From contig CP142453.1 of NCBI GenBank assembly GCA_038049695.1, positions 116,414,001 to 116,478,000 on the forward strand: 64,000 nucleotides of DNA, in the 5' to 3' direction. Positions 1 to 56,229 of the stretch are shown here, one piece after another. This stretch comes from Cinnamomum chago (lineage: Eukaryota; Streptophyta; Magnoliopsida; Laurales; Lauraceae). Numbering within the stretch: position 1 is the stretch's first letter; each line of letters starts with the position of its first letter. Below the pieces are notes generated by a model, which saw only the letters and a program-made list of their open reading frames with translations, did no database searches and had not been told where the DNA came from. Position numbers and translations under genes: made by a program.

Positions 1-85
1 ATGATTCCCCTGCAGTTCCAATATAGGACTTTAATCATTGATAACTGGGTAGGAGGGAGGACCAGTTGTGCTTCTAGTCTTGGGG

Positions 86-2125
86 TCAGAGGAAATAGTT
101 GCACGGCATGAATTTCCTATTAGATTTCACCTTGAAGGAAGGTAAGTCAACAATGAGGGAGGAAGTCTGGGTTGTTTGCTGGGTAGGGATAGCCAAGAAA
201 GGATATTTAGTGGCTGTGGAGGAAGGGTGCTTGATTGGACTAAGGACTTCGACACCATCACTTAGGGAGGAGGGAGACAATTGAGGCTTGGGATTGCTAG
301 AAGTAATGATAGGGTCTGCAATGGAACAGTCCTCCAAAATGGAGAAGGGATTAGAACACTCAATAATAGGGGCTGGGATAGTACCTACGATAGAAGAAGC
401 TTCTGGGAGAGCAGATAGGGGGTCATCTGATTTCCCTTTGGATAATGGAAGGTTACTCCTTGAGAAAAAGAGAGGAGGAGGCAAGGGGGAAGGAACAGAG
501 TTAACAGTATGCTGAGAATCTTTAGAAGAGGTGGGGGGATTTACCATAGAATGAATTGAATCCTGATGGCTGACTTCTGTTACTAGAAGGGATTCCTGAG
601 ACTTATCCAAGGAGGGGATAGCTGAAGAGGGATTTATCAGTCTGTCTGCTTCCATCGGGGTTTTCAGCAATCCAGGCCTCTGGCGATAGGGGCACTTGCT
701 AAAAAGGTGGCCAACCACTAGACATTCTGCACAAGGGATATTTTCATATGACACTTTGACCTCCACTGTGGCATCCCCTTCCAATTCCACTATAAGGAGA
801 TTAGGACCGATCTTAGCCACATCCAAAAGAACCTGCACTCTAGCAAAAGTTAACATGCGCTGCTTGGCCGTAATTTCATCTAGGAGCAAGGGCTTACCAA
901 TAGATGCGGCAATAGAGAGCAAGATGTCACTGCTCCAACAGTGATAAGGGAGGCCTTTGAGACGAATCCACACCGGAGCTTCTGCTGGCCAAGGGCTCTC
1001 TTCTTGACCTAGAGACCATGGACGAAGAAGAAGCTTTTTCTTATCAAACCGGAGGGGGCTTTGACAAGTAAGGCCATCTCTATCTGCCTGGGAATTAAAC
1101 CTAAAGATGAAATTGCCTTTCTCTGTGAGTGAGATAAGGCAGGGCACGGTAAGATGCCAAGAGGAGGACACCCACTGCTCCACAGCTTCCAGAGTTGGTC
1201 TTCTACCCGCAAATTTCCCTAAGGCAGAGAAGGAGAAGGATTTTTTGCTGTTTGTGACCATTTGCTTTGGGATCCGAATGGTGAGTTTGCCATCAATCGA
1301 GGACGCTGGGGGAATGGCAGGAAGGGGAGAGAAAATCATGGGAGAGAGGCATTTGGCAAAGGATTTGGGAGGGGATATGGGGGAAATGAGGGTAGGGGAA
1401 CATGGGTTGGAGTGTTTGGAGTAAGGGCCAATGGATGGGGGAATATGTTCAGGGTCCCAAGAGGCCAGGGTAGAGGGCAGGGTTACTGGGTTCTCTTGGT
1501 GGGGAAGAGGGTCGATGGTGGAGGTGGAGGGTGTTGGAGATTTGGGAAGGGGAGGGTTTAACTCGGAAAGGGCGGGGGCAATGGGAAAGGAGGGGACTGT
1601 CATCTGCTGAAACCCATCCACTACCTCCAATTTAGCCTCCGCCACCGCGTCCACCACCTTCTGCAGCGCCACGATCCGACGGTTCACACTCCTCCTCAGC
1701 TCTCGCACAGCAGGATCGATCCCCCGGACGCCGTCCAGCCGAAGCAGCAGCGACATCAGCCCCTCGCTCACCCTCAGCCTCTCCCGATCATCGCTCCGGA
1801 CGGCGTCAACGGTCTCCTGCCGACGGATCAGCTCCTCGTACCGGCCAGCTTCCGAATTGACGGCTGAGATCTCTATGACCAGCTTCCGTACCATGTGCGA
1901 CCGGTATGCCGACTGTATCTTGACCGCTGCGGCGGATCGGACGGATTCGAATAGGATGACGGGGATCGGGATCGGGGTCGGGTTCGGGCTTTCAGGGGTC
2001 GGGGATTCGATGGTGATTGATGTGGTTTTGGTGTGGGGAAGAGGAGTAATTTCGTCATTAGCGTTGGGGTAGAGAACAGAGTAGGAGAAGCGGCGAGTTT
2101 TGATGATGGATGTTTTTTTACCCAT
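86..2125 (-). CDS. Chimeric ORF: BAG5-like co-chaperone fused to LINE ORF1 (DUF4283 + zinc knuckle)
   Basis: A single uninterrupted 679-codon frame with an ATG start and TGA stop. Residues about 65-81 form an IQ calmodulin-binding motif (AVKIQSAYRSHMVRK) and about 83-162 a BAG domain rich in Arg/Glu helices. This is the layout of plant BAG5-type regulators, which bind Hsp70 through BAG and calmodulin through IQ; such proteins are normally only about 200 residues. From about residue 175 the protein changes to a Pro/Ser-rich linker. A DUF4283 region follows at about 290-385 and then a CX2CX4HX4C knuckle (C465, C468, H473, C478), the standard N-terminal protein of plant L1-type LINEs. The base composition also shifts, being GC-rich from about 1620 to 2100 only. 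I infer that a LINE landed in frame at the end of a BAG5 gene. It could be a working fusion gene or simply read-through into a transposon. The BAG and LINE assignments are firm; the existence of a fused protein is not shown. Confidence 0.75.
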   Translation of the reverse strand: MGKKTSIIKTRRFSYSVLYPNANDEITPLPHTKTTSITIESPTPESPNPTPIPIPVILFESVRSAAAVKIQSAYRSHMVRKLVIEISAVNSEAGRYEELIRRQETVDAVRSDDRERLRVSEGLMSLLLRLDGVRGIDPAVRELRRSVNRRIVALQKVVDAVAEAKLEVVDGFQQMTVPSFPIAPALSELNPPLPKSPTPSTSTIDPLPHQENPVTLPSTLASWDPEHIPPSIGPYSKHSNPCSPTLISPISPPKSFAKCLSPMIFSPLPAIPPASSIDGKLTIRIPKQMVTNSKKSFSFSALGKFAGRRPTLEAVEQWVSSSWHLTVPCLISLTEKGNFIFRFNSQADRDGLTCQSPLRFDKKKLLLRPWSLGQEESPWPAEAPVWIRLKGLPYHCWSSDILLSIAASIGKPLLLDEITAKQRMLTFARVQVLLDVAKIGPNLLIVELEGDATVEVKVSYENIPCAECLVVGHLFSKCPYRQRPGLLKTPMEADRLINPSSAIPSLDKSQESLLVTEVSHQDSIHSMVNPPTSSKDSQHTVNSVPSPLPPPLFFSRSNLPLSKGKSDDPLSALPEASSIVGTIPAPIIECSNPFSILEDCSIADPIITSSNPKPQLSPSSLSDGVEVLSPIKHPSSTATKYPFLAIPTQQTTQTSSLIVDLPSFKVKSNRKFMPCNYFL

Positions 2126-2250
2126 CTGTTTTGCTATCTCTTTCCGTTAGCGAGAGAGAGAGAATGAATTGAGAGGGGAAAGGAATGGTGGTGGTGATGT
2201 GATGATGACAACAACGAAGGAGGGTTCTAGAGTCGGTGCTGGGATGCATG
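2126..2250 (-). promoter_or_regulatory. CT-rich leader upstream of the BAG-LINE ORF
   Basis: On the minus strand the 100 or so bases before the ATG are pyrimidine-rich (GA-repeat on the plus strand at 2151-2162), as is common in plant 5' leaders. No clear TATA box was identified. From here to about 2548 the sequence is AT-rich and shows nothing else. Confidence 0.35.
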
Positions 2251-2548
2251 CATACATACAGATTTCTTAAAAAGTTTTGTTCTTACCCCACCCCCGGATG
2301 GTATGTCCCACTTCTTCAATGGAATTTCGCCAAAAGCTATTCTATTCTATATGTTGAATTCTTAAATCCTCTGTTAGGGCAGAGCATCTAGAAATTTCAG
2401 TGAGGCATTTGGATTTTTAGAAATTCCTAAGTTCATTTGAAATTTTTTCAGGCAGGAAGCATTTCAGATTTTAGAAAAAAAATATGACATTTGAAAATAT
2501 GAGGATAATCCATCACATCATGTTTATGAATTCTCAGTATGTTAAAAT

Positions 2549-4333
2549 CTGTTTGGACGCACAAGAAAACACAAAAAAATAATATTTTATAAAATATAAT
2601 ATTTCATTTTTTAAAAAGAAAAATTTGTGCGTTTGGTAATCTAAGAAAAATTTGAAAAAAAAAAATTCTTTTCTTTTTAAAAGCTCCATATTTTTTTCCG
2701 ACAGCTCCCTTGTACAAAACTTTTTACAAGATAAGAATCATTCAAAATGACTATTATAAAGTAGTAAAGTAAAGTAAAGAATTTAGTTCACCAAATGCAT
2801 CATACTGTGTTTGTTTACATATATGATAAAGCAAAGTAAAAGTAAATTTCACAGCATGGTAAAGGTGGGTGTAAGTGCCTAAATCTTACGGACTTGATTA
2901 AGTGAGTATGAAACTCTTGATACTGTTGTTAAGCTTCTTCTTGAGAGAGATCAAATGCCCAAGACCTGAAAGGGAAGGAAACAGAGGTTAAAGGCCCTGA
3001 CTATAGTCAGCCGAATGCACTTCGATATCTAAATTAGTACAGTTACTGAACAAAGGATGAGTGGAGAAGAAATGCAAGGTCTGGATTATATGACTTTGTG
3101 TTGTATTGCATTACATTGCATACATCTTTGGGATCTTACCCTTGTATATATATAGGTGAAAGTCCCATATGACGCTTCCTTAGTGGAGGTAGGTGGATGC
3201 ACTGTCCCGTCAGCCCATACTATGTTTCCTTAGTGGAGGTTGGTGGAGGTACTGTCCCATCGGATCATGCCTAGACTTCTTATATTATTACGGATGTGAT
3301 CGTCGGATAAGGAAAACCCCTTATCTATATCCGGCGCCCATCTTAACAGTCAGTACGTTCTGTAACGTAGCCGTAGTTTTATGGGAATACAATTATTACC
3401 CAGTACTCATTTTAGTTGACCGGACCGAGCTGAAGATGATACCGAGACCAGGTATGGATGTATCCCGGCACTGTTGCCGAGGTGCCTTATACCGAGACCA
3501 AGGCGAACCTAGCTGGTACTTTTACCGAAGCTAGCTCGGTGTTAGCTAGCATTGTTGCCGAGCTGAATGTTCCTTGGCACTATTGCCGAGTTGCAAACCG
3601 AGATCGAGATAAGCCAAGCCGGTACTACTACCAAGACTAGCATAATCTCGCTATTAGGGAAATGTCCCACACAGTGGGGTAAAGTAAATGTGGGATAAAG
3701 TATATGGTGAAGTAAAGTGTGAAGAAATAGTAAAGTAGTTTCTTTTTGTTTGACTTTATTTTATCACATTTTATCGTAGTTTTATATGGTAAATAAAAAG
3801 TGACTTATTTACATGTGTGGTAAAGTAAAATAAAGATTGATGTCATATCATAGTCAAAGATGTGGTAAAGTAAGGTGAAATGAAGTACATGGTAAAGCAA
3901 GGTGGGAGAGAAAGTTGCAAAGTAGTTGTTTTCAATGAAGTACGTGGTAATGTAAAGTGGGAGAGCAAGTTGTAAAGTAGTTATTTTTTTTATTGACTTT
4001 ACTTTGCTAAACTTTGCCATGGTTTTATGTGATAAAAAGAAAGTAACTTATTGTAAAAAAATTTGGTGGTTGAACTTTACTTTACCACACTACTTTTTTT
4101 ATCTAGACATGGTAAATTAAAGATAAATTAAAATATTTAATAAAAACTATTCTAATAGTGTAATTTACTTTAATCATAGCACCTTCCAACCATCTCAATT
4201 TAAAATCTGTCATATTTTTCAAATAATTTCAAACAACAAAAATATTATAATATCATAATTTTGCATTATTCTATTTTATTCTTGTAATATTTAAATAAGT
4301 AAATATTTTATTCTGTAAATATCCAAAGGGGCC
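2549..4333. mobile_element. TIR DNA element, copy 1 (GTAAAGTAAAG-rich), interrupted by a solo LTR
   Basis: Starts with CTGTTTGGACGCAC and ends near TATCCAAAGGGGCCC, weakly inverted termini. The body is a dense mix of GTAAAGTAAAG and its reverse complement CTTTACTTTAC, so it can fold into long hairpins. It aligns base by base, with many substitutions, to the neighbouring copy at about 4520-5619 once the LTR at 2870-3673 is removed. No transposase frame is present, so it is non-autonomous. Confidence 0.6.
2870..3673 (+). mobile_element. Solo LTR (804 bp) with 5-bp target duplication
   Basis: Begins TGTAAG, ends CCCACACA (TG...CA), and is flanked on both sides by GTGGG (2865-2869 and 3674-3678). 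Removing it and one GTGGG restores the flow seen in the sister copy of the host element at about 4800-4835. A TATA stretch (TATATATATAGG, about 3146-3157) suits an LTR promoter. The short ORFs inside (3193-3640) are not genes. No internal retroelement sequence is present, so this is an LTR-LTR recombination remnant. Confidence 0.8.
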
Positions 4334-4519
4334 CTAGATTTTTGAAATAGGCTCCTGTAAAATAACAGGCCTCATGAACCCATTTGTTTGCAAGAATATT
4401 GGGAATTCTTATTTTGGGAGAATTTGGGGTTCTCCCAACATTGTCCTTCAAGCTGTTGTTAAAACTCTCAAATAGAGTACAACATTTAGAAAGTTAGTAA
4501 GAATTTAAAATGCTAAAAG

Positions 4520-5619
4520 TAACTTGTATAAGAAAACTCAAGAAAAAAATATTTTATGGAATATAATCTTTTATTTTTTAAAGAAAAAATATTGTGCATT
4601 TGGTAACCCCAGAAAAATATGAAGAAAATATCATTTTTTTTAAAAAAAAACTCAATATCTCTTCATACAACTCTCCCATGTAGAAAACTTTCTACAATAT
4701 AAAAATATTTCAAAATGAGGTTTGCAAAGTAGCAGAGTAAAGTAAAAAACTTCACCAAATCTATCATGATGTTCACATGTATAGTAAAGTAAAGTAAAGG
4801 TAAATATCACATTACGGTAAATGTGAGGTAATGTAAATGTGAAATAAAGTATATGGTGAAGTAAAGAATATAGTGAAAGTAAAGTGTGAGAAAGTGGTAA
4901 AGTAGCTTCTTTTTGTTTGACTTTACTTTATCACACTTTACTTTATATGGTAAAGAAAAAGTGACTTGTAATAGAGTTTATGGTAAGAAAGTGGCGGTTT
5001 GACTTTACTTTACCACACTACCTTGTTATTTAAACATGGTGAAGGGATACTATGTCACGTCTGGGTCAAGGCATGTTTGTTTATTTATGTAGTAAAGTAA
5101 AATAAATGTTGTTATTACATCATGGTAAAAGGTGAGGTAAAGTAAGGTAAGATGAAGTATGTGGTGAAGTAAAGCAGGAAAAAGAGAGTTGTAAAGTAGT
5201 TGCCGTTTGTATTGGTTTTACTTTACTACAATTTACCATAGTTTTATATGATAAATAAAAGTGGTTTATTATAAAAAAAAATGCAGTAGAGCTTTTCTTT
5301 ACCACACTACTATTCTCATCCAGACATAGAAAACTACACATAAATTAAAGTATTTAATAAAAAATTATTCTAATAATAAACTTTACGACAATCAATAACA
5401 TTAACTTCTTGTTATTTTGAAAATTTTAAATATATATTAAAATCATATATAGTACAATCCAAATAACTCAATTTAAAATTTGCAATATCTTCAAAAACTA
5501 CCAAACAACAAAAATATTACAATATTCTAATATTACACTATTTTATTCTGTACTATGTTGTTCTTGTAATTTTTAAGTCTGTAAATATTTTATTCTGCAA
5601 ACATCCAAACGAGCCCTTG
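4520..5619. mobile_element. TIR DNA element, copy 2
   Basis: Second copy of the GTAAAG-rich element, about 1.1 kb and lacking the LTR. Its end (ACATCCAAACGAG) is the approximate reverse complement of the start of copy 1, which supports a GTTTGGAYG-type terminal inverted repeat. About 190 bases of other sequence separate the two copies. No protein is encoded. Confidence 0.55.
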
Positions 5620-12122: not shown

Positions 12123-14290
12123 GTCCCTTACATGGACATAGTGGTGCAGCTGCAGAGGTGGTGGAAACTGTGGAGGTTTTGGAAAACAAACTCGACAGCA
12201 TGCCTCTTGTCTTTGAATCACCAGAAGTCGAGATGGTGGAAGAGGAGTCCTCCTTCATTGACACTGAGCAGCGGGTGGTTGAAGAAAATGAAATTGAAGA
12301 AGATGATGACGTTGAGGAGTGGGATGCCAAAAGCTGGGATGATGTGGACATCATCTTGCCTGCAAAGAGTGCATTTCCTGAGGAGGAGGCTGAATCTATG
12401 GTGAAGAAAGACACCAAGCACTTAACAGCATCTGATTCCATGAACGCTGAAGTGCGTCCTCCACCTGCCAATCCCACAATTACCACTAAAAAGGCAGCTC
12501 TTCCGGTCCTTGTGAAAAGTCAAGATACAAGAAGTAAAGGTGAAGATCACGAAGTTGAAGAAGCAAAAGAAAAGACAGAGAAAAGAAGCTGCAGCAGAAC
12601 AGGAGCAATTTGCAGCTGATTCTCTGTCAAAAAGGAGTGCAGATAACCGCCGCTCTCCAATTTGTTGCATTCTCGGTCATGTTGACACTGGTAAAACCAA
12701 GCTGCTTGACTGCATTCGAGGCACTAAAGTTCAAGAGGGTGAGGCTGGAGGCATTACGCAGCAGATTGGTGCTACGTATTTCCCTGCAGAAAATATAAGG
12801 GAGAGAACAAAGGAGCTCAAAGCTGATGCAAAGTTGAGGGTTCCTGGTCTGCTGGTGATTGATACCCCAGGACATGAGTCATTCACAAATTTACGATCAC
12901 GAGGTTCTGGTCTATGTGACATTGCAATTTTGGTGGTTGATATTATGCATTGCCTAGAACCACAGACTATTGAATCTATTAACCTTTTGAAGATGCGGAA
13001 AACTGAATCCATAGTTGCCTTGAATAAGGTGGGATGGTTTACTTGATCAATTTACATTATGAATTTCAATAAGCTTTTGCGTAATGCTGCATTTGGCTCC
13101 TTGCCATCATGGGAGGAGAGATTCTTCTATGATTTTGAGAATTTAGATCTACTCATAAAAAAAGCCCTGAAAATCGAGAGAAGAATTTCTCCACTTCCTA
13201 GTGGAAGATAAGGGGCAAATGCAGTATCATTATGTTATTAGTTTCTTCTTGTGGTCTGATACTTCAGCGTTTCAATTTCAAAGGTTGATAGACTGTACGG
13301 ATGGAAGACTTGCCCCAATGCACCTATTGTCAAGGCTATGAAACAACAATCCAGGGATGTGCAAAATGAGTTCAAAATGAGGCTTACTCAGGTCATTTTA
13401 CATTCATGCCTTTTTGTCTCTATGTTAGGACATATGACTTATAGTGAACCATCATTGTGAACTTGCAATTGCCTCTCTTTTTTTTCTTTCAGATCATCAC
13501 CCAGTTTAAGGAGCAAGGCTTAAATACTTAATTGTACTACAAAAACAGAGAAATGGGGGAGGCTTTCAGTATAGTCCCTACAAGTGCAGTCAGACATGTA
13601 CCATGAACTTTAAGCTGTGCCATGTTCACCGGGTATGAAATTGTTTTTTTTTTTTTTGGTGCTTGCTGTAGCTGATTTAATGACATTTGTTTGTTTCTGG
13701 TATTCCAGTGGTACAGGCATCCCGGATCTTCTTTTGTTATTGGTTCAGTGGACACAAAAAACCATGGAGAAAAAGCTTATGTTTGTGAGTGAAGTACATG
13801 TGTGAACAATGTAGAATCTATTTAGGCACATTTTTTGTTTACCATGTTTGATATCAACACCTGTTCATACAGTTTTCACATTTATTGTTTACTCATCGTT
13901 ATCATTATCCCATATATTTAAGGTTGGCTACATTTTACTCAACCCTATATGCAACCATACAGTTTCTAACATCTTACCAGAACAGTGGTAGTTACTGTCG
14001 CTAACTTCGGGTTTGTTTCAACTGTTCTCAGTGCACGGTCTTAGAGGTAAAGGTCATTGAAGGCCTAGGGACAACTATTGATGTTGTGTTAATTAATGGC
14101 GTCCTTCATGAAAGGGATCAAATAGTTGTTTGCGGCTTGCAGGTAAGTCGTGTGACCCTTAGTTCTATCTTAAGCTTTATGGTGCTGAATGTTTCTGCTC
14201 ACATGTTCATCGTTCCATGTTAGGGGCCTATTGTTACAACTATCCGAGCTTTGCTAACAACCTCATCCTATGAAAGAGCTCCGAATAAAG
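12123..14290 (+). pseudogene. Truncated eIF5B (translation initiation factor IF-2 family) pseudogene
   Basis: Six exons can be traced: 12123-13028, 13284-13391, 13493-13593, 13709-13799, 14032-14142 and 14224-14290. They code for the acidic tail, the GTPase domain (G1 GHVDTGKT, G3 DTPGHE, G4 cut by an intron after ALNK) and the start of domain 2. Plant eIF5B is a cytosolic GTPase of over 1000 residues that joins ribosomal subunits. Here most of the N-terminus and everything after the early domain-2 region are missing. Lesions: a 1-bp frameshift near 12550-12590, a TAA stop at 13529-13531 where the family has Glu, a donor at 13594 reading AC instead of GT, and an extra base near 14256-14262. 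Introns are retained, so this is a DNA-level copy and not a retrocopy. It is almost certainly non-functional. Confidence 0.88.
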
Positions 14291-24431: not shown

Positions 24432-24824
24432 CACGTTTCAAAATCCTCCATCAGAAGAGCAAATTAACCCCATCCCATTCTCCTGTTGCAACACCGCAAC
24501 TCACACGGCAGAAACAAAGAAGAGAAGAAAGTGAGTGGAAAGCATACATGCAGATCACAGCAGTGGAAGGAGCAATCCTACTACGACTAAAATCCTCGCT
24601 GTTGATGATGTTTCCGTCCTCTTCTAACTTTCTCAAGAAAACCCCACATGTCAAACACCTCCTCTTCCCTTTATGACGTCTGTCTCTCCACCTCCATTCC
24701 AGACCCACGGCCCTTCTCCTAAACAAACCCCATTAAACATCTTCTCCTTTTTCTTTCTTTTTTCCTCTCTCTAATCTCTCTCATTTGATATCTAGCCCGG
24801 CCACCTACTGTTCTCTCATAAACC

Positions 24825-25310
24825 ATGAGAAAAACCAGGGGTTTTAGGCTAGGTCGGAAGGTCGTGAAGCTATGGAAATGGCTGCTTAAACCAAAGAGAA
24901 AGCCATCCACTGGAGGATATCTACGCTTAAGCACTTCCAACCTTACAAAAACCAGAACGATGACGAAAATCTGCAACTGGGGCCGCCGCATCACCCAGAG
25001 TCTCCGCCCCCCGCTCCTCCGTGCGTCCTCCTACTCCCGAATCGATCGGACACCGTTCGATGAAAAGCCGGTGCAAGTCCCAAAAGGCCATCTGGCCGTC
25101 TACGTCGGCCAAAAGGACGGCGACCCCCACCGGTTCCTGGTCCCCATCATCTACTTCAACCACCCTCTATTCGGCCAGCTCCTCCGTGAGGCAGAGAAGG
25201 AGTACGGATTCCACCATCCCGGAGGGATCACCATACCTTGCCAGATATCGGAGTTCGAGAGCGTGCAGATGAAGATCGCCGGAGAGAGTTGCCGGAGGAG
25301 GCGACGCTAG
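24825..25310 (+). CDS. SAUR family small auxin-up RNA protein
   Basis: An intronless 161-residue protein with an ATG start in a good context (ACCATGA). SAURs are short-lived proteins that promote acid growth by inhibiting PP2C-D phosphatases at the plasma membrane. The SAUR domain spans about 78-146, with the hallmarks VPKGHLAVYVG, HRFLVPIIYFNHPLF and LLREAEKEYGF. The long basic N-terminal arm (residues 1-75) and the Arg-rich tail place it nearer the SAUR36/41-like group than the compact SAURs of about 90 residues. It stands alone: no tandem SAUR neighbours are present. Nothing is broken. Confidence in the family is high; the subgroup is inferred. Confidence 0.93.
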   Translation: MRKTRGFRLGRKVVKLWKWLLKPKRKPSTGGYLRLSTSNLTKTRTMTKICNWGRRITQSLRPPLLRASSYSRIDRTPFDEKPVQVPKGHLAVYVGQKDGDPHRFLVPIIYFNHPLFGQLLREAEKEYGFHHPGGITIPCQISEFESVQMKIAGESCRRRRR

Positions 25311-29447: not shown

Positions 29448-29915
29448 TTAGCAAACTGCTAAGAGTGTGCTGGCACGCCTTCCTGAAGGGGTGGTAAGAG
29501 GGTTTGTCTCAGTCCGACAAAGCGGGCAACTGGAGTGCGAGTAGAGCCACATATCAATACAAAGAAGGTGAAACAAGTGCAAGCACTCAGGCAACCGACG
29601 GACCTCTTCTCCTTCCTTGAACTCGCACAGGCACACCGCACAGGTGCTGTCCTCATCACCTCTGGCTATCAAGACCTCCTCTTTGGCAGTTTTATAAGCA
29701 GGAATAAGTTGAATGAAAGAATTGTTTGGGCTGCTCCGCAATTGTTCTTCGGGTGGCGGTAACTGGCTACTGATCTGAGGGAGCCTGAACTGTTGGCGCC
29801 GACTGCACCACGCATGCAAGATGCAGTGGTAGACCATAAACAAAATGGTGGGCAACATCATTAGGATGAAGATGACGAATCCTGTAACGTGGGGTTTGGG
29901 TTCAGGGTCCTCCAT
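29448..29915 (-). CDS. RING-H2 finger protein, ATL family E3 ubiquitin ligase
   Basis: Start chosen at the ATG at 29913-29915, giving 155 residues; a longer frame to 30029 begins with GTG and has no upstream ATG before a stop. A hydrophobic segment (about residues 10-32) anchors the protein, followed by a linker with a LIPAYK motif and a complete RING-H2 finger: C92, C95, C111, H113, H116, C119, C130 and C133, with CX1HX2HX2CIDMWL spacing and the Pro before the final Cys pair (CPLC). ATL proteins are membrane-bound E3 ligases that pair with E2 enzymes, often in defence or C/N signalling. The GLD motif common in ATLs is not obvious. The protein is single-exon, as usual for ATLs, and looks intact. 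Confidence 0.9.
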   Translation of the reverse strand: MEDPEPKPHVTGFVIFILMMLPTILFMVYHCILHAWCSRRQQFRLPQISSQLPPPEEQLRSSPNNSFIQLIPAYKTAKEEVLIARGDEDSTCAVCLCEFKEGEEVRRLPECLHLFHLLCIDMWLYSHSSCPLCRTETNPLTTPSGRRASTLLAVC

Positions 29916-30074
29916 GAGAGGGAGATTGAGATTGGCATGGCTATGTCTATTAGAAGACGATTCAGTGGTGTTGATTACAAGGAGAAACCATTGTCCTAGT
30001 GATAGCTTTGCAGACGACTGCAAGGACACTCTCTTGACATTAACTAATTAATTAACGACAGTTCTGATTGGGCC

Positions 30075-44016: not shown

Positions 44017-44127
44017 GAGAGAACCCTCCTCCCTCAATTCATCATCTCAAACTCCCCTGTTTCCTAATCTCCCCTCCTTAATTGAAACATTCCTCAATTC
44101 ATCCATCTCTCCCCTTGCCTAAGGAAG

Positions 44128-44739
44128 ATGGACAGGTGCACCTATGCCCTTAGAGCCCTTGTGGCTCTCCTAGCCCTCACCACCCCTGTGAAAACATGCT
44201 TAGGTGCGAGAGTTCATCCCCATGGAAAAACCAACACCGAGTTCATAAGAACTCGCTGTGAGGCAACCACATATCCGAGATTGTGCTTCCTATCCCTTTC
44301 TTCCCATGCGAGCGCCATCCAAACGAGCCCCATGCAATTGGCGCACACTGCCCTTTCGGTGACCCTCACTGGAGCCCAGTCAGCGGCTGCAATGATAGCG
44401 AGGCTTTCAACAGCTCATCGAGTGAGGCCTAGAGAAGTGGGAGCTATGAGGGACTGCATAGAGAACATGGGCAACTCCATCGACGAGTTGAGGGAATCTC
44501 TGGCTCAGATGGGTCATCTTAAAGGCCCTGATTTCGACCTTCAGATCAATAACATACAGACATGGGTGAGTGCAGCTCTCACCGATGAGGATACTTGCGT
44601 GGATGGCTTTGCAGGGAAGGCCATGAATGGAAATGTTAAGAGCATGGTTAGGGGTCGAATTGTGAATGTGGCACAGCTCACGAGCAATGCATTAGCTCTC
44701 ATCAACGGCCTTGCGTCTCTACATTCCAAATCACCCTAA
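44128..44739 (+). CDS. Pectin methylesterase / invertase inhibitor (PMEI domain)
   Basis: A 203-residue intronless protein with an ATG start. A hydrophobic signal peptide (about residues 1-26, ALTTPVKTCLG) sends it to the apoplast. The PMEI domain is a four-helix bundle held by two disulfides, and the four conserved Cys are present: C44 and C53 (FIRTRC...RLC), C110 (MRDC) and C157 (DEDTC). The signature helix TWVSAALTDEDTCVDGF and the C-terminal NVAQLTSNALALI are intact. Family members bind and block pectin methylesterases in the wall or acid invertases; the sequence alone does not decide which. It most resembles the short 21-kDa-like PMEIs. A paralogue faces it at 50.9-51.5 kb. Confidence 0.93.
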   Translation: MDRCTYALRALVALLALTTPVKTCLGARVHPHGKTNTEFIRTRCEATTYPRLCFLSLSSHASAIQTSPMQLAHTALSVTLTGAQSAAAMIARLSTAHRVRPREVGAMRDCIENMGNSIDELRESLAQMGHLKGPDFDLQINNIQTWVSAALTDEDTCVDGFAGKAMNGNVKSMVRGRIVNVAQLTSNALALINGLASLHSKSP

Positions 44740-50866: not shown

Positions 50867-51454
50867 TTATGGGTTAGTGCCAGACTTGTCAGCATAGCGA
50901 TTAACAAGAGCAAGAGCATTGCTGGTAACCTGAGCCACATTCACAATCCTCCCCCTCACCACCTCCTTAACCTTCCCCTTCGTCACAAACCCATCCACGC
51001 ACGTGTTCTCATCCGTCAACGCCGCACTCACCCAAGTCTGCACGTTGCTCATGTGCCACATGAAGCTCCCCGACTTACCCGTCCGACCCAGCTCCTGAAT
51101 CGACCGAGTCAACTCATCCACGCTATCCCCAATATTGTCCACGCAGTCCTTGATGGCCGCCCGGTCACGTGAACTCATTCCCTTGCCGTGTGACAGCTTC
51201 GACACGAACGTAGACACAGACCGTGCACGTGCGAGGCTTACGTTCAGCGCGGTCTGCGCCAGCTGCTTTGGGCTCTGCTGTATGGAGCTGGCGTAGACGG
51301 AGAGCGACTGCACGCACACCGCAGGATAGCTTGTGGAGCTGCAGGAAGATTTGATGAAATCGCTTGAGCCGGTTCGTGATGTTGCAGAAACGCTCACGGC
51401 CACACACAAAACAGCGACGATGATGACTAGAGAGATGCTGGAAGCTCGTTCCAT
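50867..51454 (-). CDS. Pectin methylesterase / invertase inhibitor (PMEI domain), second copy
   Basis: A 195-residue intronless protein, ATG at 51454. Signal peptide about residues 1-24 (ending SVSA). Conserved Cys C38, C47, C104 and C152 give the two PMEI disulfides. TWVSAALTDENTCVDGF and VNVAQVTSNALALVN are almost the same as in the gene at 44128, so the two are paralogues. Both are secreted wall proteins expected to inhibit pectin methylesterase or invertase. They lie tail to tail 6.1 kb apart. This copy is much more GC-rich than its surroundings. The hAT element just beyond its stop may supply or disturb the polyadenylation signal. It appears intact. Confidence 0.94.
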   Translation of the reverse strand: MERASSISLVIIVAVLCVAVSVSATSRTGSSDFIKSSCSSTSYPAVCVQSLSVYASSIQQSPKQLAQTALNVSLARARSVSTFVSKLSHGKGMSSRDRAAIKDCVDNIGDSVDELTRSIQELGRTGKSGSFMWHMSNVQTWVSAALTDENTCVDGFVTKGKVKEVVRGRIVNVAQVTSNALALVNRYADKSGTNP

Positions 51455-51469
51455 TCTCTTGTCTTGTGA

Positions 51470-51594
51470 GAAAGAGAAAGAGAAAGAGAAAGCAAGAGAA
51501 AGAGAAAGCGAGAGAAAGAGAGAGCTGTTGGTCGGATTTGGGGGCTGATTGGATGAGACTGAGAAAAGATGAGGAAGTTGGGGTTTGTTTATAA
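51470..51594 (-). promoter_or_regulatory. Leader and TATA box of the PMEI gene at 51454
   Basis: Minus-strand TATAAAC (plus 51587-51593) lies about 135 bases before the ATG. Between them is a long TTTCTC repeat (plus GAGAAA, 51470-51523), a pyrimidine-rich leader. Confidence 0.65.
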
Positions 51595-51599
51595 GAGGG

Positions 51600-53671
51600 T
51601 ACTGCTTTTTACTGTAGCTTCAGGGGCTGAGGTGGGGAGGATATGGATAAGTTTTCTTGGTCTTCACATGACATGTCGACCGTTGATTACGTTATGGGGA
51701 AAGTGATCAAGCGGTAGATGCGGGCATTAATGTCTGGAGGTGGGGAATGAGAGAGAAACTTTGTGTTCACATTGCGGGTGGACGGAAAGGTGGCAAGTTC
51801 ACACACGCGAAAGAAAGAGGAGGAGAGAAGGTACCTATGAATTGAATAAAAAAACAGAGGGGTTGATTTTAATGTCGTCGGCCTATGTCTCCCGTACCAC
51901 ATGCCCTTTTCTTACATTTTTTAACAAGGACCTATGTCTTTTGGGTTTGGCATACAACCACCTCGATCGATTCTAGATATTATATTATCCAACTACTTTA
52001 ATGAATAATCTCACCTATTTTTCCTTGTTGTCAACCAAGTTTAAACTCAAAATCAAAATACTGAACTACTAGCTACTCTTGAGTTAATTAAAGTTGTCAA
52101 TGATATTATTTTCATAGTTTAAACTATTACAGTTTTTCAAGGAAATTTGTTGAGGTGGCTGGATGACACTGTAGAAAAGTTTTGGGGGTTGGCATAAAAC
52201 AAAAAGGTAGTTGTTTGTGTGTATGAGAAAAAAAAAAAAAAGTTAAGGGGTCATATGTAAGCTCTCTCAATTTGACGAGTCAAGTTTTCTGCGCTAGCTG
52301 TGGTTACGGACATCAGGTGACCAACAATACATATCTTACATCTTATTATCTTGACCATTGATTTTGGGTGATCCATCTCATCCAAGCAGTGTCATTTATT
52401 GATGTACGTCCCATTTCAACCAGAGCCCCGGCCCGTTGATATTTCTAGCTAAACTATGGAGGTCTGCCAAGTGCCAACCCTAGTAAATAGTAAAATGTAA
52501 ATCGGTTGAAGAAATATGGGATTTTTGAATGCCTGAAATAGAATGCAGGCCTCTAGCAATAGCCACAGATCTAATGAACAGCTTCAAACTCTAGAAGGAT
52601 TTTATAAGTTGTTCGGACTCCAAAAGGCATGAATGAATTATTGTGACATGAATCAGAGATACGGTGGTTATAAAACTAAAAACCACAATAATATGCGCTA
52701 TCAATGTCGTTTGGTAAGTGGTTTTCCACAAGCAGCCTGGAAAGCACGTGATCCTGTCTAATTCAAAGTTTGAAATGGGGCTGTTTGTCGCAAAATAGGA
52801 TCCAAAGTAATGCATGTCATAAAATCAGGTGTCTTTTGTCTACAGCTAAGGCTAAGATGGCGGTGACGAATGCATCAAACTGTTCAATCCTCTGCATCTC
52901 TCCTTCTATTTCGGAATACGATCTTCATGACAACTTGGATTGCAGGTTATCAAATCTCACTAGAGTAACACAATTCAAAACAATCCAATCAGCGGCCCAT
53001 ATTGCATCAAATAGTTGGATGCCCAGGATCATTTCTAAGTCACCACGGTAATACAATTTCTACAGTTCATGCAGCATGCTTACCATGTCAATCCAAGCGA
53101 GCCTGGAGTCCTTTTGGATCAAAACCATACCCCAAAAATCATCCAAAACAAATGTTTCCAACACTTAATCATTGGACTTCATGGGGATAATGCTAATGAC
53201 CATCAGTCTGATTGACCTCCTTGCCGCAACTTCACTGTTCAAAAGAACTATTAATGTGATTTCCAGGCCCATCAAAGAGGCAGTGCATTGAACGATTTAA
53301 GGGTCCCAGAGACTCATATACAATGCATATCTCAGTGTAAAAAGATGCTTTGGCTCCTCTGTAAATGAAGGAATCCTGGAAATAAGAAAACCAAACAACC
53401 AAGCATCTCAAAGCCCACTATCTGAACCTTTGATAATTCAGCTTTCGAACTACAAATGGGTAACCTACTTCACCCCCTTCCTCTTTAATAGAGGCAAATA
53501 AGAATCCCCGAAATACCAAATGTCATATAATGGAAATAACTCCTCTACTCCGCAAAACATGAGAACGGCCAAGAAACAATAATCATCCAAAGTAATATAT
53601 ATATTACACAAAACAACGTGCGAAGACAGAAAATGATCACAACATATTGAATCTCATCACAATAACAATCA
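51600..53671. other. Intergenic region, no gene seen
   Basis: Promoter side of the second PMEI gene and downstream flank of the GIL1-like gene. AT-rich, with no coding frame of note. Confidence 0.5.
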
Positions 53672-54937
53672 TCATTCAGCACACTTGGCCCCCGAGAGGT
53701 AAACCTGGCACTGAATTACACTGCCACCAATCTTGAAACCTGGCATAACCATAAACCCAACCATAGCTCGTTGGTCTCCCTCGCCTACAATCACATTTTT
53801 CACAATGCTTTCCATATAAACCTCGGAGAACTCGGTTCCCTCTCTCACTTGAAACAATGTAACATGGGGATCAAAAGAAAACGCAAGACGGTGCAGCAGC
53901 CAAATTGACTTGGCCAGTTTCAGAAATGCCTGGTAGAAAGGTGTCCTTGGATGACCACCACTCACTACATAGTTCCTCTGATCCAAACTCCCAAAGAAAG
54001 AGGATTCCATCTTTGGATGAATGACTGACAAGTATTTGCTCCGGCAGAATTTCCCAAAAATTGAATCTGGGTTTTGGCTCAGAACATCCAATGGATCCAT
54101 CGCTCGTAAAGCAAGAAACTGATGGAAGAACCCGTCATTAGAGATGGTAAGATCTTCATGTTCAACAGAAAAGCTCTCTTTCTCAAACCCACTAAACATT
54201 CTTTGGCAGATGTGTGACTCGAACGCATATTTCTGGTGGGACCTTTTCGCATAAACAACAGCAGGTTGGATTGCATTTGCTGCTGCATCAAGATCCCAGC
54301 CAGCTGCTTTCATCAGATTGATCAATGGTTTTGAGAAATCATGGATGGCCTTGTAAGCGGCTTCTGCAGCAGAGGAGAAGAGATCTGGGGTCAGCTCTGT
54401 GGAGAAGAAACTGTTCTCTTCAAAATCTTCTAATTCTTTGGCTTGCAAGCCCCTCTGCTTGAGCTTCTTTTCAAGTTTCCCCTTCTTCTGGTTTGATTCT
54501 AGGATTTGCTGTTGCAATTCAAGAATCTCAGAATCTTTGGTCTGAATCTGGGATTGAAACTTCTTCACCATAACTTCATACGTTTTCAAAAGATTCTGTT
54601 GCTCTTGGATTTCAGCAACTAATCGTGAATCCTGAGGAGAAGCTGTAGTAAGTTTTGGGTTGCCATCCCTGTAGAAATGCTTCAGTTCAGAGAGGCCCTT
54701 GAGCTCATCAATTACAAGTTTATCAGCTGATTGGATCTTGTCTGGGTCATACGGTGTATGAGCAGATTGGAGTTGAATATACGCTGCTTTTAAAGAGGAG
54801 ATATTTGTAAATATCTTGGTTATCAGGGCTTCCATCGCTTCCTGACCCTGATTCATTGTCTCTTCAACGGGTTGCGGATGGACCTTCTGGTTATTGTTCT
54901 CACGGATTTGGGTTTCTTTCAATCCTGTGGGTAGCAT
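53672..54937 (-). CDS. GIL1-like protein (DUF641 / IRK-interacting family)
   Basis: A 421-residue single coding exon, ATG at 54937. Residues about 34-160 are the DUF641 region, with the family hallmarks MEALITKIFTNISSLKAAY and QLQSAHTPYDPDKIQ. An overlapping coiled coil runs through about 105-170 (heptad-rich LKTYEVMVKKFQSQIQ...). The C-terminal half carries the conserved blocks ending FKIGGSVIQCQVYLSG. GRAVITROPIC IN THE LIGHT 1 acts downstream of phytochrome in light control of gravitropism; a maize relative interacts with a receptor kinase. The length fits the GIL1 group and no lesions are seen. Non-coding leader exons probably lie at 61151-61203 and 61317-61460, which makes a very long leader intron. 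Ortholog-level identity is likely but not proven here. Confidence 0.92.
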   Translation of the reverse strand: MLPTGLKETQIRENNNQKVHPQPVEETMNQGQEAMEALITKIFTNISSLKAAYIQLQSAHTPYDPDKIQSADKLVIDELKGLSELKHFYRDGNPKLTTASPQDSRLVAEIQEQQNLLKTYEVMVKKFQSQIQTKDSEILELQQQILESNQKKGKLEKKLKQRGLQAKELEDFEENSFFSTELTPDLFSSAAEAAYKAIHDFSKPLINLMKAAGWDLDAAANAIQPAVVYAKRSHQKYAFESHICQRMFSGFEKESFSVEHEDLTISNDGFFHQFLALRAMDPLDVLSQNPDSIFGKFCRSKYLSVIHPKMESSFFGSLDQRNYVVSGGHPRTPFYQAFLKLAKSIWLLHRLAFSFDPHVTLFQVREGTEFSEVYMESIVKNVIVGEGDQRAMVGFMVMPGFKIGGSVIQCQVYLSGAKCAE

Positions 54938-56229
54938 TGCTTTTCTCTTTGGAGGCGTGTGCTATCGATTCTTCAGCAAAAACACCAGAAGACCTTAGTC
55001 TGCGTGAACTTGCAAATTTTTGAAACAGTATGTTAGGCTAGAAGTGTTTTAGAAGTAACAGATATGTACTTCAGAAATAGATAATTTAAATGTGAGTAAA
55101 TAAATACTTCAGAACTATTCACTAACCATTATATAGATCAACATTTCCAATCAGCACCAGTACCAGTCATATTTTGAATAACATCCATAGCCAGGTTTTA
55201 ATGGATTATAATAGCTTTGTCAAGAGACGGTTATGATAAGTGGGCAATGCCATTGGGAAAGAGAATGACTAGCTTTTCTTATTTCTTCCTATTTTCAACT
55301 TCTCAAATGAGCTTATATGCTATATTTGGAGGGAAACCCACCAGAAAGAAGTTGACCAAGAGGACGGCGAAAATTTGTACTAACACTCACCAGGCATTTT
55401 CCATCAGCACATCCCCCACAGTTATATGAAACAGACCCAAAGTTATATACCCGGCAAATTGCAAATACCATGACATAGGTAGGTGACAAGCAGCAATTAC
55501 ATGTCTACTACAATCGCTGTCTCAGGCCTTGAAGGCCACCGCCCATTAAGTGGGCTACACAACTACCAGCATATGAGGCGTTCACCAAAAGAGAAAAAAA
55601 CAAAGAAGACCCTCTAGCATATGAGGCTTCAAAACAACTGTCCAGACAAGTTAAGTCTGTTAGTCCAGATTAATTAATAGTCGTTTTCATGAGTCTTCTT
55701 ACAATAAGATGTTTCACTTCCTTAATGTAGAAATGCAGTGAAAGGTTTTAAAACACCTTTTCTTTTTGGTAAAAGAGCAAGTCCCCAGTTGACAGACTTG
55801 AAGCATCAAAGGAGTGTATTTTCTTTTCTACTTTAGGATGTCATAAAATATAACAGAATACAGTAAAACAAGAAAAATATAATAATACATAATAGGGCAG
55901 GGTAGATGCTACAAAGTAAAAGTGATGCATATTAAACTGCAGAACTAGTGTTTAAAAGACAATATAAGGCAGCTGCCAAAATTGTTAAATCATGACTGAT
56001 ACCGCAGTATTGTTTGTAACGGCCTGACGAATTTTGTCATGGCCCCAAAACAGAGCTAATTCATTTTACAGATTCACATTTAGTAAAAACCATCTTTACA
56101 ATTACCAGTTAAAAACACTAATCTAATTTCAATCTTATTACTACTTTAGACTACTTTAGGTAACCACCTACGAGACAAATAGCTAGTTAATAAGGTGTTT
56201 AATGGAGTTCTAAGACGAAACAAATGCCC

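Follow-up and report, generated by a model that had tools for sequence, protein, structure and literature searches.

A BAG5-type reading frame joined to a LINE ORF1 in Cinnamomum chago, probably a by-product of an ordinary insertion

On contig C3 of the Cinnamomum chago genome, a single ATG-to-stop frame of 679 codons (window 2125-86, minus strand) runs from a BAG5-type co-chaperone gene into the ORF1 of a LINE, which raises the question of whether a new protein has arisen here or whether the frame is an accident of insertion. The window is the whole stretch of DNA analysed, 64,000 nucleotides long (C3:116414001-116478000). A preliminary description had reported this frame as uninterrupted and as carrying an IQ motif, a BAG domain, DUF4283 and a CX2CX4HX4C zinc knuckle; the listing of open reading frames, the Pfam search and a pattern match bear it out. 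The IQ motif occupies residues 65-82 of the joined frame (PF00612, 21.1 bits, cut-off 20.3), the BAG domain residues 86-160 (PF02179, 41.5 bits, cut-off 23.4) and DUF4283 residues 310-432 (PF14111, 94.2 bits, cut-off 27.2). The knuckle CAECLVVGHLFSKC lies at residues 465-478 (window 733-692) and was identified by its pattern; no zinc-finger model was among the Pfam matches listed for the joined frame.

The IQ motif sits directly before the BAG domain, as in plant BAG5-type co-chaperones; the C-terminus belonging to this type is missing, the gene being cut after codon 172. The motif reads IQSAYRSHMVR from residue 70 and is without the G of the IQ consensus given in the available text of PMC4990970. 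Residue 156 of the fused BAG domain is K, and E occupies this position in a second BAG5 copy and in both homologues on contig C6. Searches of the PDB returned weak BAG matches only: AtBAG4 was the best named (E 0.59, and E 0.11 in a second search), and in the second search an unrelated IQ-bearing radial-spoke protein ranked first (E 0.059). Among prokaryote contigs, the patterns matched in 23 stretches with no relative confirmed, and a literature search found no paper combining the BAG domain, DUF4283 and a LINE.

The LINE part of the joined frame is an insertion. A DNA search of the genome (1.06 Gb in 14 contigs) with the joined frame gave at least 52 matches; 40 of the 208 candidates were scored, and the counts are lower bounds. 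Matches to query positions 535-2039 are dispersed LINE copies, the top-scoring one at 90% identity. The BAG5 half, among the matches listed for the candidates scored, matches only the window and C3:116304590-116305107 (L010), a second copy of the gene with 94% identity, on the same strand, 111 kb away from start codon to start codon. In this copy the target site is uninterrupted and the gene runs on through the insertion point. Within the same scope (52 matches listed, 40 of 208 candidates scored), the join of BAG5 to the LINE was seen at no place besides the window. Searched at protein level, the BAG5 part recovered, in addition to these two copies, the pair of IQ-BAG homologues on C6 (46% and 44% identical) and a single weak match on C12 (E 0.95).

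The junction lies between window 1609, the last duplicated base of the BAG5 target, and 1608, the first base of the LINE, and M175 of the joined frame corresponds to the LINE's own ORF1 start as matched to sister copies. The preliminary description was right that the frame of a BAG5-type gene continues into that of a LINE ORF1. The 17-bp target-site duplication GGTAGTGGATGGGTTTC is single in the stretch with the second BAG5 copy, and the 122-kb stretch containing the LINE has it at two places. Its 3' copy is preceded by CATTTAGCGAAAAAA, the LINE 3' end with the A-tail AAAAAA, and sister copy L013 ends likewise in CATTTAGCGAAAAAA and has a 16-bp duplication of its own. The duplications and the A-tail thus bound the LINE on both sides, and the 3' end and target duplication that had been sought beyond position 1 of the window were both located. 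With DUF4283 in ORF1, a target-site duplication and a 3' A-tail, the element shows three of the features of a plant L1-type LINE. The inserted stretch between the severed BAG5 halves measures 46,313 bp (46.3 kb), and the severed 3' end follows in register beyond the nested elements. Its coding end reads LMSWEEIVRGDCGGGGGRRRRECENGFECFERVLWRLSL followed by a stop, so that about 39 BAG5 codons were cut off. Sequence downstream of the second copy recurs behind the window copy, from C3:116369277 towards lower coordinates, as two main blocks (93% and 96%) plus a piece of 57 nt. The features are collected in Table 1, together with other genes of the window; besides these, two PMEI genes lie on opposite strands, 6 kb apart (window 44086-44736, plus; 50870-51619, minus).

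Table 1. Features of the BAG5-LINE locus and other genes in the window. Plain numbers are window positions.
Feature	Position	Strand	Basis
BAG5 upstream region common to the second copy, with 139 of 2479 sites substituted	2126..4609 (C3:116418609-116416126)	-	alignment
BAG5-type 5' part, start codon to codon 172 plus one base	1609..2125	-	ORF and Pfam; second copy 94%
17-bp target-site duplication GGTAGTGGATGGGTTTC, 5' copy	1625-1609	-	perfect match to 3' copy
LINE leader, 5 nt between duplication and ORF1 start codon	1604..1608	-	duplication and sister copies
LINE ORF1, DUF4283 and zinc knuckle	86..1603	-	Pfam, pattern, sister copies
LINE ORF2 start (at 38); frame of 131 codons in this copy, closing outside the window	1..38	-	ORF listing
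LTR retrotransposon nested in the LINE, 11,164 bp (11.2 kb)	C3:116412970-116401807 (L009, L016)		terminal repeats and flanking repeat
Presumed CACTA-like insertion nested in the LINE, inverted ends, 29,361 bp (29.4 kb)	C3:116399834-116370474 (L016-L020)		inverted ends
17-bp target-site duplication GGTAGTGGATGGGTTTC, 3' copy, outside the window	C3:116369295-116369279	-	perfect match to 5' copy
Elongation-factor GTPase domain piece	12516-13043	+	
Auxin-responsive protein	24822-25307	+	
RING finger protein	29451-30047	-	
DUF641/GIL1-type protein	53675-54961	-	

The LINE is itself interrupted. Its pieces follow in order across the 46.3 kb (C3:116415591-116412971, 116401806-116399835 and 116370473-116369667), and its 3' end continues to C3:116369296, much of this stretch being about 87% identical to sister copy L013. 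The nested LTR retrotransposon has terminal repeats that are 97.6% identical over 1891 bp (40 sites differing), with AAGACG on both sides of the element; tandem duplications are seen within these repeats. We take the signature of the second nested insertion to be CACTA-like, and motifs in some of the open frames are presumably copia-like. Since the LTR element sits inside the LINE, the LINE insertion predates it; since the second BAG5 copy is without the LINE, the insertion falls between the BAG5 duplication and the arrival of the LTR element. It is thus later than a BAG5 duplication of 3-6% divergence.

Very probably, then, this is an ordinary LINE insertion that disrupted one of two BAG5-type genes, and the joined frame is a decaying by-product. 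Target-primed reverse transcription is the standard mechanism of LINE insertion; by this route a near-full-length plant L1-type LINE would have entered the gene in sense orientation at BAG5 codon 172/173 and placed its ORF1 start codon 5 nt behind the duplicated target. Because the element starts almost at this codon, the entry of the BAG5 frame into ORF1 needed only a one-in-three chance. Later insertions of the LTR retrotransposon and the CACTA-like element would have moved the BAG5 3' end 46 kb off, and this copy has presumably lost its normal C-terminus and 3' end. A transcript from the BAG5 promoter, if any, would probably end inside the inserted elements and would read BAG5 residues 1-172, two glutamines and then ORF1. 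The joined frame is probably decaying without detectable selection, and the other BAG5 copy and the two more distant IQ-BAG genes on C6 remain.

The preliminary description had held that the event is recent or the frame maintained. The insertion does postdate the BAG5 duplication; maintenance of the frame is not supported by the changes private to the fused copy. Five sister copies (L011-L015) out of 20 fetched served as the reference, with codon context approximated by that of the fused copy. Private changes affect 36 of 1173 sites in ORF1, comprising 30 replacement and 6 silent changes and no stop. Neutral simulation (random placement of the same mutation types, 5000 runs) gave 25.3 replacements, 9.4 silent changes and 1.3 stops, and 26% of the runs were free of stops. 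Replacements are not depleted, and selection on ORF1 finds no support. The ratios of replacement to silent changes were 10:3 in the N-terminal region, 4:3 in DUF4283, 4:0 in the knuckle region and 12:0 in the C-terminal region, the DUF4283 and knuckle counts being too few to decide alone. Elsewhere in the fused LINE, private changes against the same five sisters amount to 20/888 and 27/1602 sites in the ORF2 pieces and 16/510 in the tail, and ORF1 evolved no more slowly than ORF2 in this copy. Among the sisters, replacements are depleted in L014 (27:36, with 0 of 1000 runs as low) and L015 (38:37, P 0.001) and marginally in L013 (21:17, P 0.047), with no depletion in L011 (15:5) or L012 (21:8). 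Since it showed depletion in two of the five sisters, L014 and L015, the test has some power; purifying selection on the element-derived ORF1 of the fused copy was not detected by it.

Slow evolution of ORF1 was also considered as a sign of selection and rejected. In an initial distance table the fused copy seemed exceptionally close to the remaining ones, whose rows included as much as 300 bp of unrelated flanking sequence upstream; this closeness is an artefact, and the ORF1-only comparison supersedes it.

The LINE frames of the fused copy are partly damaged. A private 2-nt deletion near the C-terminal end of ORF1 is absent from the nine sisters aligned there (9 of 20; the other 11 are without the search motif), and the frameshift that it causes makes the joined frame stop short of the end seen in the alignable sisters, so the LINE frame is not fully intact. 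ORF2 is broken, closing after 131 codons, with a private single-base indel in each of two pieces. The internal private indels of ORF1 (-6, -33 and +9) all keep the frame, as does a shortening after the ORF1 start, where 39 nt lead to a shared block compared with 158-238 nt in 11 sisters (177 in L004). These indels and the shortening could predate the insertion and stem from the active period of the lineage. The joined frame includes 505 LINE codons without a stop, and four of the 20 sister copies likewise have stop-free frames of at least 506 codons. These were measured from one stop to the next and could include as much as 300 nt of sequence ahead of ORF1, so some may extend beyond ORF1 itself. 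The openness of the fused ORF1 is therefore not exceptional. In copy L030 (C1:19911300-19914200), an open frame of 591 codons runs from ORF1 into the ORF2 start, and the ORF1 start is repeated just upstream.

The two BAG5 copies differ unevenly along their length. Beyond the first 160 bases, 6 of 357 sites differ in the IQ/BAG coding part, compared with 139/2479 (5.6%) upstream and 86/2522 (3.4%) downstream, the latter in two stretches including the severed coding end. The smaller number of differences in the IQ/BAG part than in the flanks means that one of them, at least, was constrained. Near its start, the second copy carries an insertion of 4 bp that shifts the first ATG out of the IQ/BAG frame; an ATG farther on lies within that frame. 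Of the two copies, only the fused one thus has its first ATG in frame with IQ/BAG. Either copy, or neither, may still supply BAG5.

These observations bear on the alternatives. That the fused protein is made and still works as BAG5, with ORF1 as a tolerated tail of no new function, is favoured by the intact IQ and BAG domains and the N-terminal frameshift of the second copy. A construct comprising AtBAG5 residues 49-153 binds apo-calmodulin; it was crystallised and used in a study of Hsc70 binding (PMC4990970, available text), so the C-terminus lost here may be dispensable and the fused IQ-BAG module could still bind. We nevertheless consider this improbable: any transcript would have to terminate within the nested elements, the BAG5 3' end lying 46 kb away, and K156 stands where the three other members compared have E. 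It is less probable again that the joined frame is expressed and selected as a new protein tying an apo-calmodulin- and Hsp70-binding module to the nucleic-acid-binding domain of a LINE. The frame is continuous, with the original BAG5 start and upstream region, IQ and BAG score above the Pfam cut-offs and the private indels keep the frame, but replacements are not depleted, the absence of stops is likely due to chance, ORF1 is shifted at its end and no slower than ORF2, and K156 falls within the BAG domain. The proposed chaperone-retrotransposon protein is supported by the open frame and the frame-keeping indels, and by nothing further.

That a LINE lineage captured the 5' part of BAG5 and now spreads it would fit the sense orientation of the join; it is scarcely credible, as, among the matches listed, the BAG5 half occurs only in the window and the second gene copy and LINE matches outside the window begin at query 535 or later, and the target duplication falls inside BAG5. 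For the 40 candidates scored out of 208, capture is refuted. An assembly chimera has hardly any chance of being correct either: nothing beyond the unusual join speaks for it, and the perfect duplication, the A-tail and the way in which BAG5 resumes in register with its 3' end beyond the insertion speak against it. The ordinary insertion has in its favour the duplication, the A-tail, the ordered LINE pieces, the join seen nowhere else among the matches listed, the replacement-to-silent counts, the long stop-free frames of sister copies, the 2-nt deletion, the broken ORF2 and K156; the 505 stop-free codons, the frame-keeping indels, the constraint on IQ/BAG and the frameshift of the second copy count against it.

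The position of the junction next to the ORF1 start codon appears to be a feature of the LINE family. Of 21 sequences, counting the fused copy, 11 have a recognised ORF1 start preceded by 60 nt of sequence. Among these, pairwise identity averaged 0.86 in the opening 15 nt of ORF1 and between 0.25 and 0.29 in five upstream bins; homology among the copies apparently begins at the start codon. The longest shared words in the 30 nt upstream measured 4.49, little different from 4.42 after shuffling; the observed value was reached in 24 of 100 shufflings. The 5' end was fixed by a duplication in 7 of the 12 copies tried (the fused copy, L011, L013, L027, L035, L038 and L039), although the duplications of L027 (10-12 bp) and L038 (11 bp) are short. 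Their leaders are all different, with lengths of 5 (fused), 19, 20, 21, 22, 28 and 38 nt. No duplication was found for L014, L015 and L007, no start was recognised in L012, and in L030 the sole match, of 9 bp, is ambiguous and stops 87 nt short of the start codon. The leaders of L007 and L027, a close pair, have the last 7 nt, next to the start, in common, so leaders are not wholly new in every copy. For six leaders, local templates were no better than for shuffled leaders (lowest P 0.09), and three of the seven were without a second genome match: L013 in an exact search, L035 and L038 with up to 3 mismatches. The leaders may derive from 5'-junction filler, template jumps or rewriting from host flanks.

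It is possible, albeit on the unlikely side, that this family is practically without a 5' UTR of its own, its 5' end being rewritten at insertion and its transcription depending on the host site. If so, insertions that enter exons in sense orientation would work as exon traps, one-third of them coupling ORF1 to a host protein in the way seen with BAG5. The start-codon boundary, if upheld, would explain the easy origin of in-frame fusions and would prompt one to ask how transcription is achieved in a LINE that lacks a 5' UTR of its own. At the locus itself, a striking domain fusion reduces to a nested insertion once the empty site, the target duplication and the sister copies are compared, and the insertion is bracketed in relative time. 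This is a warning against annotating the joined frame as a new BAG gene.

Parallels to parts of this arrangement are found in three plant systems, each compared here with the available text of its report. Arabidopsis AtBAG5, of the CaM/BAG5/Hsc70 system, likewise has the IQ motif directly before the BAG domain (PMC4990970); here, everything that followed residue 172 has been severed and LINE ORF1 stands in its place. The poplar LINE Celine (PMC11288735) resembles the present element in a DUF4283 ORF1 overlapping ORF2 (here in the sister copies) and in poly(A), and the 17-bp duplication is within the 10-30 bp reported. The Celine example has a 635-bp 5' UTR, whereas homology here starts at the ORF1 start codon, and ORF2 is broken in the fused copy. 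BrLINE1-RUP in exon 1 of BrCER2 (PMC10368883) is likewise a LINE in a plant coding exon, but there a 130-bp piece introduced a premature stop and was accompanied by a 40-bp deletion instead of a duplication, whereas the element described here is near-full-length, has a target duplication and left the frame open.
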